A stretch of DNA of 64,000 nucleotides from positions 806,001-870,000 of the forward strand of contig NC_050734.1 in assembly GCF_014133895.1 (NCBI RefSeq), in the 5' to 3' direction. Origin of the DNA: Torulaspora globosa (lineage: Eukaryota; Ascomycota; Saccharomycetes; Saccharomycetales; Saccharomycetaceae). Both the position numbers and the translations under genes were made by a program. Every line of letters starts with the position of its first letter. The stretch's first letter is position 1. The notes beneath the pieces were generated by a model that saw nothing but the letters and a program-made list of their open reading frames with translations, made no database searches and was not told the origin of the DNA. Below, in pieces: positions 2,477 to 12,254 of this stretch.

Positions 2477-3493
2477 ATGCAAATCATGAAGGTAGCAGAA
2501 GCCACGACAGCAGATAAGTCCTTGCCAGAGGATCGTCCCAAGGAGGAGAGCAAAGAAATTCCCACGATATATCTTCATCCAAAGTTTTCAAATTGCTCTA
2601 GGACGGACCTAGCGATTCTGATATCTCGAATGCTAACCTTTTTGATACAGATCAACGACTCGTCGTCTTCCTCCGCACCAGATAAACTTTCGGGCTTGAC
2701 GAGATTCCATTCGAGAGTGCCGCCTAATATTTCCGTTTACAATTATCTTCTGCGGCTAACAAAGTATTCGTCGCTTGAACATTGTGTTCTGCTAACAGCT
2801 GTTTACTACATTGACCTCCTATCAAGCGTCTATCCTATTTTCAAGTTAAACTCGTTGACAGTTCATCGGTTTCTTTTGACTGCAACCACCGTGGCAAGTA
2901 AGGGCCTTTGCGATTCTTTCTGCACTAACACTCATTACGCAAAAGTCGGTGGAGTCCATAGCAGTGAATTGAACATTTTAGAATGTGAATTCTTGAAAAG
3001 AGTTAACTACAGAATACTCCCCAGGGACAATAATATAGATTGGTGCAAGCTGGAATCGAAGTTCCACAGTTTCTCGCTGTACGACGAACCAACAGAGTTA
3101 CCAAACATCGGATCAACGGCAGCTTTGAAAAACAGCGGATACAACGTTTTGAATGCCTACTTTCGTAAAATAGTTCAGTTGGTCGGGCCCTATGATGCTT
3201 CACCAGATAAATCCAAAGCGGCCAATTATGCTTTGCTTCCTCCGTCACCCAAGGAGAACTGTGCCAAAATACTTGGAGATGGAGAACTGGTCATACAGAG
3301 TGACTCCCTCGGCAAAAGCTCAACGGGAGCTATGATATCAGGCACCAAACGTCCCAGTATCCAGGAGGCCCATTCACGAAAACGGAACCTGGAAATTGAA
3401 GGGACAGATCATCAACCAATCGAAAAAAAAGTTTCAGAGCTAACTAAGTCAAAAAAACAGACATTCAATCAAAAAGCACCTACATTCACATAG
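2477..3493 (+). CDS. PHO80: Pho80-like cyclin of the PHO pathway
   Basis: A 338-aa cyclin that should partner the CDK Pho85 and phosphorylate Pho4 when phosphate is plentiful. The cyclin-box region spans about residues 60-200 and includes the stretches YNYLLRLTKYSS, VLLTAVYYIDLL and LNSLTVHRFLLTA, followed by LNILECEFLKRVNYRI, all typical of the Pho80 subfamily. The C-terminal 120 residues are low-complexity, Lys/Ser-rich and longer than in S. cerevisiae (293 aa). Two ATGs sit three codons apart (2477 and 2486); the first is used here. It lies next to IZH2 and is separated from RRP6 by the centromere candidate, the same order as around CEN15. Confidence 0.94.
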   Translation: MQIMKVAEATTADKSLPEDRPKEESKEIPTIYLHPKFSNCSRTDLAILISRMLTFLIQINDSSSSSAPDKLSGLTRFHSRVPPNISVYNYLLRLTKYSSLEHCVLLTAVYYIDLLSSVYPIFKLNSLTVHRFLLTATTVASKGLCDSFCTNTHYAKVGGVHSSELNILECEFLKRVNYRILPRDNNIDWCKLESKFHSFSLYDEPTELPNIGSTAALKNSGYNVLNAYFRKIVQLVGPYDASPDKSKAANYALLPPSPKENCAKILGDGELVIQSDSLGKSSTGAMISGTKRPSIQEAHSRKRNLEIEGTDHQPIEKKVSELTKSKKQTFNQKAPTFT

Positions 3494-3593
3494 CATTTTA
3501 GCAGTATATAATTGAATCGCATCTCTGGGAACAGTAGCTAGAGATAATACTGACCCTAAAAGTTCGATGGTATTGGATTCTTTGTCAAACACT

Positions 3594-3760
3594 TTTTTGG
3601 TCTCGGAAACCAAATACAGGGGGCCTCTTTTAGAAAATTAGATTTTTAGTTATATATTTTTCATGGTAAGATAAAATTTTAACAAATTTTTGATATGTGT
3701 TTATTATTTTTTAATAAAATATATATTTCAATATTAATTTCATAAGTTATTTCACGTGAT
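3594..3760 (-). other. CEN: Point centromere (CDEI-CDEII-CDEIII)
   Basis: Read on the minus strand. CDEI is ATCACGTG, a perfect match to RTCACRTG, at 3753-3760 (Cbf1 site). CDEII is 133 bp at 3620-3752, about 83% A+T overall and about 88% over 3631-3752. CDEIII is at 3594-3619 and matches the 26-bp S. cerevisiae consensus, with an intact TTTCCG core (CCG opposite 3605-3607), the flanking TGTATTTG arm and the terminal A-run; this is the CBF3 site. It sits between PHO80 and RRP6, the genes flanking CEN15, about 100 bp from each gene. The arrangement is seen directly; function is inferred from motif order and synteny. Confidence 0.93.
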
Positions 3761-3862
3761 TTGACACAACTCAACAATAAATAAGAAAACTTTTAAGCTA
3801 CAATTTTGGCCAATTACATAAAGCACACCAGAACAAGTCCAAACGTTTCAGCGCTTCATACA

Positions 3863-6073
3863 ATGACAACTTATGACGGTTCGCAGCTGCTTTCCAAGGT
3901 TCTCGACACCATCAGAGCGTCCACAGCGTTGGGTGCTCAAGATGTCGATTTTTGCCGTAGTATGAGTAAGGATATAGGCGATGCGCTAGATAAAACTTGT
4001 GATGAAATTGTGAACCTTATAAATGGTCTTTTGACCTCGGTGGACCAAAACACAGAACCATTGGAATGTGGACGAGATAGGCTCCAAGACTCTTGGAAGG
4101 ATTTTAGCAATGTTATGGACAACATATTTGAACTCTCGGATAGATCTATAGATATCCTGACTAAATCTTCTGGTACAATGAACAATGGAATTCAGATGCA
4201 ATTTTTGGATGACTCTAGCAGGACCAAATTCACATCATCTGCAAAGATCGTCAAGCCCCAGCTATCTTTCAGGACGCCTGTTGATAATACGGAAGGGCAT
4301 CCTTTCGTTCCCCTACTCAAGGAAAAGCCATTCGCGCTCAAACCTTTTGCTAAAGTAAAACTGCTCCCAGGTAATGATTCTATGCCAGAGCACTATGAGC
4401 ATCCTTACCAAGACGAGATTGAGAGTCAGGAATACGATCATTCTGTCATTTTGAAGTCAGAGCCTATCGCCTCTCAGCCGTGGGACACTACTGAGGCGGT
4501 TTGGGTCGATAATACCGAGGTTCTCGATGCAATGTTATCTGATCTGAAAAGTGCAACTGAACTTGCGGTTGATCTAGAACATCACGACTACAGGTCTTAT
4601 TATGGCATAGTTTGTCTTATGCAGATTAGTACAAGAAGTACGGACTACCTCGTTGATACTATTTCTTTGCGAGACGACTTGTATGTTTTGAATGAGGTTT
4701 TTGCGAACCCAAAGATCTTGAAAGTTTTCCATGGTGCCTTTATGGACATAATATGGCTACAACGAGATTTGGGTCTTTACGTGGTGAGTCTCTTCGACAC
4801 ATATCATGCCTCCAGAGCGATTGGTCTTCCGAGGCATAGCCTGGCGTATCTATTAGAAAGGTACGCACATTTCAAGACTTCCAAGAAATATCAGCTATCT
4901 GACTGGAGGATTAGACCACTTTCAAAGCCAATGAAGGCGTATGCCAGAGCCGATACGCACTTTTTATTGAATATCTATGATCAATTGAGAAATACATTGA
5001 TAGAGCAAAACAAGCTAGCTGGAGTTTTGGCGGAATCACGAAACGTAGCTAAAAGACGTTTTGAATATTCCAGGTTTAGGCCTACTGTACCTTCAACTAG
5101 CGTTTATTGCCCCATCGAGAAGCCAGATCAATGGAAAACGTTGATGGTACAATACAACATTCCACCAGAAAAGGAGGAGCTGGTCAAGAGACTTTACGAT
5201 TGGAGGGACACAATAGCTCGGAGGGACGATGAATCATCGAGATACGTGATGCCTAACCAGCTATTGGTTTCTCTTGCTGTCAACACGCCAACAACCCCGG
5301 TCGATGTCATATCTGTGAATAACGTTGTCACGGATCATGTGCGGTCCAATTCTTTGGTACTGGCTAATTTAATCAAGAGCTCGATACAGTCGATAAAATT
5401 GAGCAAAGCTCAGTCTGTACTTCAATCAGATAAGACCAATAACCTGACCGCAGATTCACTGTTGACTATTCCGCAAATAAAGAAAGTCATGTCTATTTTT
5501 GAAGGCATCGCTCAGACGGGGTTAACTACTGAAGAGCATGAGAAAGATAATGGCTCATCAAAACTAGTTGACATTTTGACATCAAAGAACAACGCTGTCG
5601 ATTATAGCGATGGAGGTCCTCGTCGCATAAAGCACGAGCAGTTCGAATCACGGTGTCATGAAGCATGGAAAACAATGGAGGACTTTGATAATACTGTGGT
5701 TTATAGCATACAAGCGCCAGAACCAGATGCTGTGATAAAAGAGTCCGCACAAGAGCCTCCAAGAAGATCTCCAGGAATTAGCGAACAGGCGGCACAACCT
5801 GAAGAGGACATGGATGAAATAGTCACTCTGAAAAGGGTAAGAAGACATGATCAATCTCCGGAAACTAATGCTGAAGAACCTAAACGTCAAGCCGTCGATT
5901 ACTCGAAAAGTGAGAAGATTCTTGTGGAGAATCGCAATGCCAGCAAAAAGAGAGATTCTAAGAAAAGAAGTTTTGATCCTTATGCGGCATCTAATCATTC
6001 AGGTGATGCTCCTAGAGGTGTTAAGAAACGAAGATCGACTAACAGGGGAAGGAACGTCTCCTTTAAAAAGTGA
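3863..6073 (+). CDS. RRP6: Rrp6, nuclear exosome 3'-5' exoribonuclease
   Basis: A 736-aa nuclear exosome subunit that trims 5.8S rRNA and snoRNAs and degrades aberrant transcripts. An N-terminal PMC2NT region (about 1-110) that would bind Rrp47 is followed by a DEDD-Y exonuclease domain: D237 and E239 in AVDLEHHD, D295 in HGAFMDIIWLQ, Y360 and D364 in YARADTH. An HRDC domain (about 420-500) and a basic C-terminal tail (about 650-736) follow. All catalytic residues are one position off the S. cerevisiae numbering, supporting the ATG at 3863; the frame stays open upstream only to a TTG at 3806. The start lies 102 bp from CDEI, so its promoter must lie in or over the centromere. Confidence 0.96.
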   Translation: MTTYDGSQLLSKVLDTIRASTALGAQDVDFCRSMSKDIGDALDKTCDEIVNLINGLLTSVDQNTEPLECGRDRLQDSWKDFSNVMDNIFELSDRSIDILTKSSGTMNNGIQMQFLDDSSRTKFTSSAKIVKPQLSFRTPVDNTEGHPFVPLLKEKPFALKPFAKVKLLPGNDSMPEHYEHPYQDEIESQEYDHSVILKSEPIASQPWDTTEAVWVDNTEVLDAMLSDLKSATELAVDLEHHDYRSYYGIVCLMQISTRSTDYLVDTISLRDDLYVLNEVFANPKILKVFHGAFMDIIWLQRDLGLYVVSLFDTYHASRAIGLPRHSLAYLLERYAHFKTSKKYQLSDWRIRPLSKPMKAYARADTHFLLNIYDQLRNTLIEQNKLAGVLAESRNVAKRRFEYSRFRPTVPSTSVYCPIEKPDQWKTLMVQYNIPPEKEELVKRLYDWRDTIARRDDESSRYVMPNQLLVSLAVNTPTTPVDVISVNNVVTDHVRSNSLVLANLIKSSIQSIKLSKAQSVLQSDKTNNLTADSLLTIPQIKKVMSIFEGIAQTGLTTEEHEKDNGSSKLVDILTSKNNAVDYSDGGPRRIKHEQFESRCHEAWKTMEDFDNTVVYSIQAPEPDAVIKESAQEPPRRSPGISEQAAQPEEDMDEIVTLKRVRRHDQSPETNAEEPKRQAVDYSKSEKILVENRNASKKRDSKKRSFDPYAASNHSGDAPRGVKKRRSTNRGRNVSFKK

Positions 6074-6200: not shown

Positions 6201-6827
6201 TCAACAACTGCATGAACTTGGTTCTCCATCCAATTGAATGTTGATAGCGTCATTGAAGTCCTCTTCGAAAGCATCAGCATCGGCCTGATTTTGTTGCAGT
6301 GCGCTACGTCCTATCTCCTCAAAAGCAGTATCAACATTGATTGCATTTTTCGCACTAGTGAAGAATAAAGGAACGTTTCCTAAAGACTTGGCCAGTTCCT
6401 GCGCCGATTTAGTACTTACCACTTTCTTTGACTCTTCAACGTCAACTTTATTGCCCAGGATAACAAACGGAAAAGTTTCAGGTGAAGAAACATTTGCGTT
6501 TACGAGAAATTCATCCCTCCATGACTTGATATTCTCAAAGGATTTACCGTTTGTCACATCATAAACTAAAACACAACAATCTGCACCTCGATAAAAAGCC
6601 ACTCCAAGCGATTGGAAACGTTCCTGACCAGCAGTATCCCAAACTTGCATCGTCGCCACTTTGTCGTCGTCAACAACAACCTCTTTGGTAAGGAAATCAG
6701 CTCCAATGGTCGCCTTATATTGCTGGGAATATTTGTCGTTCACATAACGGTGCATCAAAGATGTCTTTCCGACCCCAGAGTCCCCCAAAATGATAACTTT
6801 TAATATGTTCTTCTTTCTCGAGGACAT
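6201..6827 (-). CDS. YPT7: Ypt7, Rab7-type vacuolar GTPase
   Basis: A 208-aa Rab GTPase that recruits HOPS for homotypic vacuole fusion and late-endosome to vacuole transport. P-loop GDSGVGKT (15-22), switch I around [15 protein letters not shown] switch II, NKVD and TSAK guanine-binding motifs, and a C-terminal CSC prenylation motif are all present. The frame is open upstream to 6929, but the ATG at 6827 starts MSSRKKN as in other Ypt7 proteins and gives exactly the S. cerevisiae length. It is convergent with RRP6. In S. cerevisiae YPT7 (YML001W) sits beside CEN13, so its presence next to the CEN15-type centromere fits an unduplicated ancestral order. Confidence 0.97.
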
Positions 6828-8770: not shown

Positions 8771-10402
8771 ATGAAGCCCAAGGGTAAAGCAACGCTAAGG
8801 CGAAGTTCGGTGGAGGAATCATTCTATGCTTCCCCGTTGTATGATTTTTTATACCCTTTTCGACCTGCTGGGAGCCAATGGTTGACGGAGTACGTGATTG
8901 TGCTATTTGCCCTGATTATAGCTTGTGCCGTCGGTTTGGGAAACTACTCTGGATTCAACACTCCACCAATGTTCGGTGATTTTGAAGCCCAACGGCATTG
9001 GATGGAATTGACTCAGCATCTGCCACCTTCTCAATGGTATTGGTTTGATCTGGAATACTGGGGTTTGGATTATCCGCCATTGACAGCATACCATTCCTAT
9101 ATATTGGGCAAGATTGGGTCGTTCATAAAACCAGAATGGTTCCGTCTAAATGAGTCTCGAGGATATGAGTCGCCTGATTTGAAGACTTTTATGAGATTCA
9201 CGGTTCTACTCAGTGAAGCATTGTTTTATATACCAGCGGTAGTCTACTTTACAAAGTGGTTGGGCAAGCATCGGAATCAATCACCTATCGGACAGTTCAT
9301 TACAGCTGCAACCATACTATTTCAGCCCTCTTTGATGCTAATAGACCACGGGCATTTCCAGTACAATTGCGTCATGCTAGGTTTGACCGTTTATGCGATC
9401 AATAGTCTTCTCGAAGAATTTTACGCTGCCGCAGCAGTTTGTTTCGTGCTGTCTATATGTTTTAAGCAAATGGCCCTGTATTACGCTCCGATATTCTTCT
9501 CATATTTGCTGAGTAAGGCGCTTTTTTCTCCGAGATTCAACTTTCCTCGACTTTTGTCCATTGCTGTTGCTACCTTGTCTTCATTTGCTGCTGTTTACGC
9601 TCCCTTATATGTTCTTGGAGGTGGGTTGCCCAATGTGCTACAATCAGTCCACCGTATTTTTCCCTTCGCCAGAGGAATATTTGAAGACAAAGTGGCCAAT
9701 TTTTGGTGTGTTACCAACATTTTTTTCAAATACAAAGAGGCTTTTACTCAGGATGAGCTTCAGCTATACTCATTGATTGCAACGTTGGCAGGTTTCTTGC
9801 CAGCAGCCTTCGTTATTTTCTTGTACCCCAAGAAGCATATCATTTACTATGCGCTGGCCACCTGCTCAATGTCTTTTTACCTCTTCAGCTTTCAAGTCCA
9901 TGAGAAGACAATATTGGTCCCATTACTGCCAGTAACGTTGCTTTATACCTCTTCTAACTGGGATGTGCTTTCGCTCGTTAATTGGGTAAACAATGTCGGG
10001 CTGTTCACTCTATACCCGCTGTTGAAGAAAGATGGTCTGACTTTACAATACTACGTTTGTTTCGCGCTAAGCAACTGGCTAATTGGAAATTTCAGCTTTG
10101 TAACACCAAAGTTCCTCCCCAGCTTCTTAACACCCGGCCCATCAGTGAGCAGCATCGATATAAACTATAGACGCCGCAGCTTACTTCCACGTAACATTGT
10201 GTGGAAGGTTGTGATTGTCGGCTCATATGTGTCAATGGGTATTGTGCATGTATTGGACTTATTTTTCATCCCCCCTGCCAAGTACCCTGATTTGTGGGTT
10301 CTTTTCAACTGTACAATAGGGTTTGTCTGTTTTTTGTTGTTCTGGCTTTGGAGTTATTACATGTTGTTCACTATGCCTAGCAAATCTTTGCAACAGCTCT
10401 GA
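8771..10402 (+). CDS. ALG6: Alg6 alpha-1,3-glucosyltransferase
   Basis: A 543-aa multi-pass ER membrane enzyme of the ALG6/ALG8 family (GT57). It adds the first glucose from dolichyl-phosphate-glucose to the Man9GlcNAc2 dolichol-linked oligosaccharide. Conserved features include the luminal loop with FGDFEAQRHWMEIT-like sequence and WGLDYPPLTAYHS, the family DHGHFQYN motif, and FARGIFEDKVANFWC. About eleven hydrophobic helices are visible. A GTG lies directly before the ATG at 8771; the ATG is used. Length equals S. cerevisiae Alg6 (544 aa). Order RRP6-YPT7-pirin-ALG6 matches YOR001W-YOR002W with two genes between. Confidence 0.97.
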   Translation: MKPKGKATLRRSSVEESFYASPLYDFLYPFRPAGSQWLTEYVIVLFALIIACAVGLGNYSGFNTPPMFGDFEAQRHWMELTQHLPPSQWYWFDLEYWGLDYPPLTAYHSYILGKIGSFIKPEWFRLNESRGYESPDLKTFMRFTVLLSEALFYIPAVVYFTKWLGKHRNQSPIGQFITAATILFQPSLMLIDHGHFQYNCVMLGLTVYAINSLLEEFYAAAAVCFVLSICFKQMALYYAPIFFSYLLSKALFSPRFNFPRLLSIAVATLSSFAAVYAPLYVLGGGLPNVLQSVHRIFPFARGIFEDKVANFWCVTNIFFKYKEAFTQDELQLYSLIATLAGFLPAAFVIFLYPKKHIIYYALATCSMSFYLFSFQVHEKTILVPLLPVTLLYTSSNWDVLSLVNWVNNVGLFTLYPLLKKDGLTLQYYVCFALSNWLIGNFSFVTPKFLPSFLTPGPSVSSIDINYRRRSLLPRNIVWKVVIVGSYVSMGIVHVLDLFFIPPAKYPDLWVLFNCTIGFVCFLLFWLWSYYMLFTMPSKSLQQL

Positions 10403-12181: not shown

Positions 12182-12254
12182 TTCCTCGTGGCCCAATGGT
12201 CACGGCGTCTGGCTACGAACCAGAAGATTCCAGGTTCGAGTCCTGGCGGGGAAG
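12182..12254 (+). tRNA. tR(ACG): tRNA-Arg (anticodon ACG)
   Basis: The 73-nt sequence forms a cloverleaf. Acceptor 12182-12188 pairs with 12247-12253 (one T-G pair), the discriminator is G12254, the anticodon ACG sits in CTACGAA, and the T arm is GGTTCGAGTCC. It is nearly identical to yeast Arg-ACG tRNA. There is no intron. A T-rich terminator (ATTTTATTTTTTT) follows at once. Confidence 0.97.

Follow-up and report, generated by a model that had tools for sequence, protein, structure and literature searches.

The closest described systems are CEN15 and CEN13 of Saccharomyces cerevisiae, which share the CDEI-CDEII-CDEIII plan with the locus studied here; both map to ancestral CEN6, and CEN15 lies on the minus strand (PMC3141009, Table 1). 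CDEII of S. cerevisiae is given as about 85 bp in PMC12925627. In Saccharomycetaceae without the whole-genome duplication (non-WGD species), as described in PMC3141009 and PMC12925627, point centromeres occupy ancestral sites and CDEII is A+T-rich and of near-uniform length within a genome, as we find in Torulaspora globosa; the non-WGD species of PMC3141009 have 6 to 8 chromosomes, and the T. globosa assembly has 8 contigs. CDEIII is numbered by the S. cerevisiae convention, with 26 positions and G at 2 and 8 (PMC3141009). Gordon et al. (2011; PMC3141009) reported its motif CCGAA to be without exception in more than a hundred centromeres and gave logos for ten species. However, Huiozyma point centromeres lack CCGAA and are still counted as such (Helsen et al. 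2025, PMC12925627), so CCGAA is not a defining feature. According to the same source, the unconventional centromeres of Naumovozyma depart from it as well.

The two half-sites of CDEIII, TGT and CCG, are read by Cep3 through its zinc clusters, and Ctf13-Skp1 sits at the central G (PMC6077249); the Cse4 nucleosome occupies CDEII (PMC10381965). The CBF3 complex was provisionally concluded to be limited to fungi with CDEI-II-III centromeres (PMC1557759).

A point centromere between PHO80 and RRP6

We analysed a 64-kb stretch of T. globosa DNA (the window) from the contig here called C8. Its 168-bp segment 3593-3760 carries CDEI, CDEII and CDEIII (Table 1) and is, on its sequence, a real, complete point centromere of a known kind at a conserved site. 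A sequence-only reading of the window had recognised these elements, in this order and spacing on the minus strand, and our analysis bears this out, as it does the flanking genes, which PDB matches identify as PHO80 and RRP6. The start of the set given there, 3594, was off by one; CDEII, given as 133 bp, is A+T-rich as described but measures 134 bp.

Table 1. Centromere elements and neighbouring genes of the C8 locus, in window positions
Feature	Position	Strand	Description
CDEI	3753-3760	minus	ATCACGTG; expected Cbf1 site; spacing matches other sites
CDEII	3619-3752	minus	134 bp, 83.6% A+T (0.836)
CDEIII	3593-3618	minus	26 bp, TGTATTTGGTTTCCGAGACCAAAAAA; CCGAG in place of CCGAA
G/C block at CDEII edge	3619-3625	minus	GGCCCCC (plus strand GGGGGCC); abuts CDEIII
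PHO80	2477-3493	plus	338 aa, left flank; PDB match PHO85 cyclin PHO80, E=5e-88; Pfam Cyclin
RRP6	3863-6073	plus	736 aa, right flank; PDB match RRP6, E=1.7e-230, residues 1-736
HlyIII-family gene	465-1448	minus	Pfam PF03006
Ras-superfamily small GTPase	6201-6827	minus	208 aa; Pfam Ras
ALG6/ALG8-family gene	8771-10402	plus	Pfam PF03155

CDEI, at one end of the set, is of the RTCACRTG type. CDEIII keeps TGT at positions 1-3, G at 8 and CCG at 13-15 (the start of CCG at position 13 is our own count). Its TTTCCG core is intact, as previously noted, and the longer motif CCGAA is changed to CCGAG by an A to G at position 17. CDEII stands out in the window: 46 of the 63,866 possible 134-mers are at least as A+T-rich, and all 46 start within the 300-base bin 3600-3899.

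The surrounding genes support the claim that the site has been kept as at S. cerevisiae CEN15. Further left of PHO80 lie the HlyIII-family gene, a DHHC palmitoyltransferase and a SIN3-family gene; further right of RRP6 lie the Ras-superfamily GTPase, a pirin and the ALG6/ALG8-family gene. The HlyIII-family gene, the GTPase and the ALG6/ALG8-family gene stand where we would expect IZH2, YPT7 and ALG6, respectively. The order around CEN15 (SIN3, PFA4, IZH2, PHO80, CEN15, RRP6, ALG6) matches that at C8, including PHO80 and RRP6 as the immediate flanks and a centromere in minus orientation. YPT7, which borders S. cerevisiae CEN13, has its counterpart at C8 interleaved in the CEN15-like order; such a mixture of CEN13 and CEN15 neighbours is as expected for a genome without the whole-genome duplication. 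A tRNA-Thr (AGT) at 306-378 and a tRNA-Arg (ACG) at 12182-12254 bracket the centromere region.

The genome encodes Ndc10 (PDB match CBF3 subunit A, E=9.7e-207), Cep3 (E=4.6e-190) and Cse4 (E=8.9e-70), so that, judged on these three, genes for both CBF3 and Cse4 are present. There are also seven HLH matches, Cbf1 not being singled out among them. The C8 site is almost certainly the point centromere of its chromosome, in place at ancestral CEN6 (S. cerevisiae CEN13/CEN15), a call that rests on its sequence and spacing, the genomic set of eight, the neighbours and the Ndc10, Cep3 and Cse4 genes. From these we infer binding, occupancy and segregation: a Cbf1 dimer would sit on CDEI; CBF3 (a Cep3 dimer, Ctf13-Skp1 and Ndc10) would recognise CDEIII by its TGT and CCG half-sites and recruit Cse4; and a single Cse4 nucleosome would occupy the A+T-rich CDEII, where the kinetochore and its spindle attachment would be built. 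With TGT, CCG and the central G all preserved, the C8 centromere is expected to work. The picture of how a point centromere works is unchanged by these results.

The eight predicted centromeres of the genome

The assembly comprises 9,281,121 bases in 8 contigs (C1-C8, C8 carrying the PHO80/RRP6 site). Across all of it, a search for TCACGTG and TTTCCGA separated by a gap of 115-145 found 4 matches, compared with 1 in a reversed control, and a looser pattern with CACRTG gave 12 in both. Three of these 12 had a gap of at least 73% A+T, namely the C8 site, C6:608908 and C4:765828; the other nine had gaps of 50-63% A+T. Among the CACRTG matches, the likely true ones are told apart solely by A+T content and neighbours. 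The C6 and C4 sites emerged from the pattern scan before any gene was looked up. The former adjoins an IRC22-like gene (TRAP-alpha family) and the latter an ERG26-like gene (3-beta-HSD family), both of which are known as neighbours of S. cerevisiae centromeres.

On the other five contigs, sites were located through citrate synthase, dynamin and trehalase, families that include centromere neighbours. Stretches of about 20 kb around each neighbour on these contigs, and shorter ones of about 10 kb at the C4 and C6 sites, were taken and scanned by script for CAVBTG, a gap of at least 74% A+T and CCGA. The scan returned a set on C1, C3, C6, C7 and C8, C6 giving a further match with a short gap. On C2 it picked the correct CDEIII but joined it to an E-box farther away. 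It returned no set on C4, whose CDEI form CACATG is excluded by the pattern, or on C5. The C5 site and the C2 CDEI were placed by reading the most A+T-rich block.

The neighbours are APS kinase and dynamin on C1; HAT1 and a 202-aa ORF without a Pfam match, followed by citrate synthase, on C2; an eRF1-domain (DOM34-like) gene and a septin on C3; an N6-adenine-methyltransferase-like and the ERG26-like gene on C4; a fasciclin-domain ORF and dynamin on C5; the IRC22-like and an RRM gene on C6; and trehalase and an ECM15-like gene, followed by two histone genes, on C7. In S. cerevisiae, the counterparts of these pairs lie next to centromeres. On C6, the reading frame of the IRC22-like gene (C6:608162-609085, minus) stays open upstream through the predicted CDEI-CDEIII, and the true start of this gene is probably an internal ATG.

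Comparison of CDEIII-like sites across the genome, which had been proposed from the window, thus yields a list of eight predicted centromeres. Five of them, C2-C6, have a CDEII of 133 bp, while C8 has 134, C7 135 and C1 142, the 133 bp of C2 and C5 being partly a matter of choice, since their CDEI was assigned by distance from CDEIII. Seven of the eight thus have 133-135 bp and one is about 9 bp longer. The A+T content of CDEII is 74-87%, with C8 the second most A+T-rich. The C8 CDEII had been singled out for its length; it is longer than that of S. cerevisiae, but given the range of 133-142 bp its 134 bp is normal for the genome. The idea that this site is special in having a very long CDEII was therefore rejected.

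CDEIII columns 2 and 11-16 (G; TT, CCG, A) are identical at all eight sites. Position 17 is A in seven and G in C8 alone, so that the strict CCGAA consensus (Gordon et al. 2011) is present at 7 of 7 other sites and absent at C8. TGT at positions 1-3 and G at position 8 are each found at five of the eight sites, C8 included. CDEI reads CACGTG in C3, C6 and C8, CACATG in C4 and CAGCTG in C1 and C7, with weaker forms in C2 (TCCACGTT) and C5 (GTCTGCTG).

The C1 centromere (C1:802036-802209) differs from described non-WGD point centromeres in its longer CDEII, which exceeds the other seven by close to one helical turn; CDEII length steps of roughly 10 bp are described in PMC12925627, and the C1 excess is in line with them. 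Among the eight, the C1 CDEIII ranks last in leave-one-out score.

Strength of the combined match

We built a model from the seven other sites (CDEIII, CDEI, a CDEII length of 128-146 and A+T content). The C8 site scored 60.2 bits in C8:800001-914501 (114.5 kb), compared with at most 2.9 bits in 8 first-order Markov resamples of the same stretch, the length range and A+T weight of the model having been picked after the set was seen. In leave-one-out scans of one stretch per contig, the assigned site came top in 8 of 8, at 42.2-60.5 bits, with C8 second best in total score. More than 200 bp off the site, real sequence reached 18.4 bits on C1, 9.4 on C8 and at most 2.6 on the other six; real DNA thus outscores the resamples. 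CDEIII alone scored 14.7 bits at C8, within the 11.0-17.3 of the resamples, and was dropped as proof of a centromere. The combination of CDEI, CDEII and CDEIII at C8, in contrast, is beyond chance.

It might be argued that the locus is no centromere but the RRP6 promoter, in which an A+T-rich spacer, a Cbf1 site and a CCG triplet fall together by chance. Cbf1 sites occur in promoters too, about 100 bp separate the end of CDEI from the RRP6 start downstream, and the score of CDEIII by itself fits this explanation. The joint score far above all resamples, the conservation of the neighbours and the presence of a matching set on the other contigs, however, make such a coincidence extremely improbable.

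The site might also be a relic, an ancestral centromere decaying in place while the working one lies elsewhere on the chromosome. Of the eight, C8 alone lacks CCGAA in its CDEIII, and its CDEII edge is the richest in G+C, as decay might produce. However, its CDEI is a full ATCACGTG, and both the A+T content of its CDEII and its leave-one-out score rank second of eight. The 114.5-kb stretch holds no second site (9.4 bits being the best beyond 200 bp), and the two other CACRTG matches on C8 have gaps of just 53% and 57% A+T; for the other 800 kb of the contig, coverage was limited to the patterns TCACGTG and CACRTG, and these are blind to CDEI forms such as those of C1, C2, C5 and C7. With no better site in the 114.5 kb and no A+T-rich gap in the two other CACRTG matches on C8, we rejected a relic or relocated centromere, which we consider very unlikely. 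As to the expectation of one site per chromosome, the stretches on which the full model was run (9.9-114.5 kb) each hold one set, in 8 of 8 contigs. The last 600 bases of C8, up to its end at 914501, are degenerate and GA-rich: purines largely prevail on the plus strand, and inspection by eye revealed no clear telomere repeat.

CCGAG and the G/C-rich edge of CDEII

The points against the centromere call are CCGAG, the score of CDEIII alone, the G/C edge, the equal number of CACRTG matches in the control, and the presence of TGT and the central G at five sites each. CCGAG and the edge are peculiar to C8 among the eight. The GGGGGCC stretch beside CDEIII, pointed out in the sequence-only reading, is real: the last 15 bp of CDEII on the CDEIII side are 60% G+C in C8 and 7-40% in the other seven, making this the most G/C-rich edge of the set. 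Both traits also set C8 apart from S. cerevisiae, and CCGAG sets it apart from other non-WGD point centromeres. C8 shares the departure from CCGAA with Naumovozyma and Huiozyma, but there, as described in PMC12925627, it is species-wide, whereas in T. globosa CCGAA is retained at seven of eight sites and CDEIII is of conventional type. A lone CCGAG among seven CCGAA sites, together with the G/C edge, is a mild oddity.

In the core of the C8 CDEIII, TTTGGTCTC and GAAACCAAA stand one base apart as the arms of an imperfect inverted repeat. Its single mismatched pair involves position 17, and an A there would make both 9-base arms around the central C match fully. The mismatch is consistent with, though no proof of, a recent A-to-G change. 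It is also possible that the centromere is real and CCGAG an assembly error or strain polymorphism, which is compatible with our explanation of the site. A single base separates CCGAG from the CCGAA of the seven others, and that base would restore the repeat; single-base errors, however, are rare in finished assemblies, and we consider this unlikely.

The change lies near the CCG half-site but outside it, and CCGAG at C8 is probably tolerated. C8 may be a working natural point centromere in which A to G at position 17 and a G/C block against CDEIII represent either tolerated drift or a first step in a one-by-one change of the centromeres, and the block might set the boundary of the Cse4 nucleosome or of the CBF3 contact; we see as much to be said for this reading as against it. 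Mutational work on position 17 in S. cerevisiae is cited in PMC3141009, and the C8 site offers a natural test of the need for this position, reported as invariant elsewhere.
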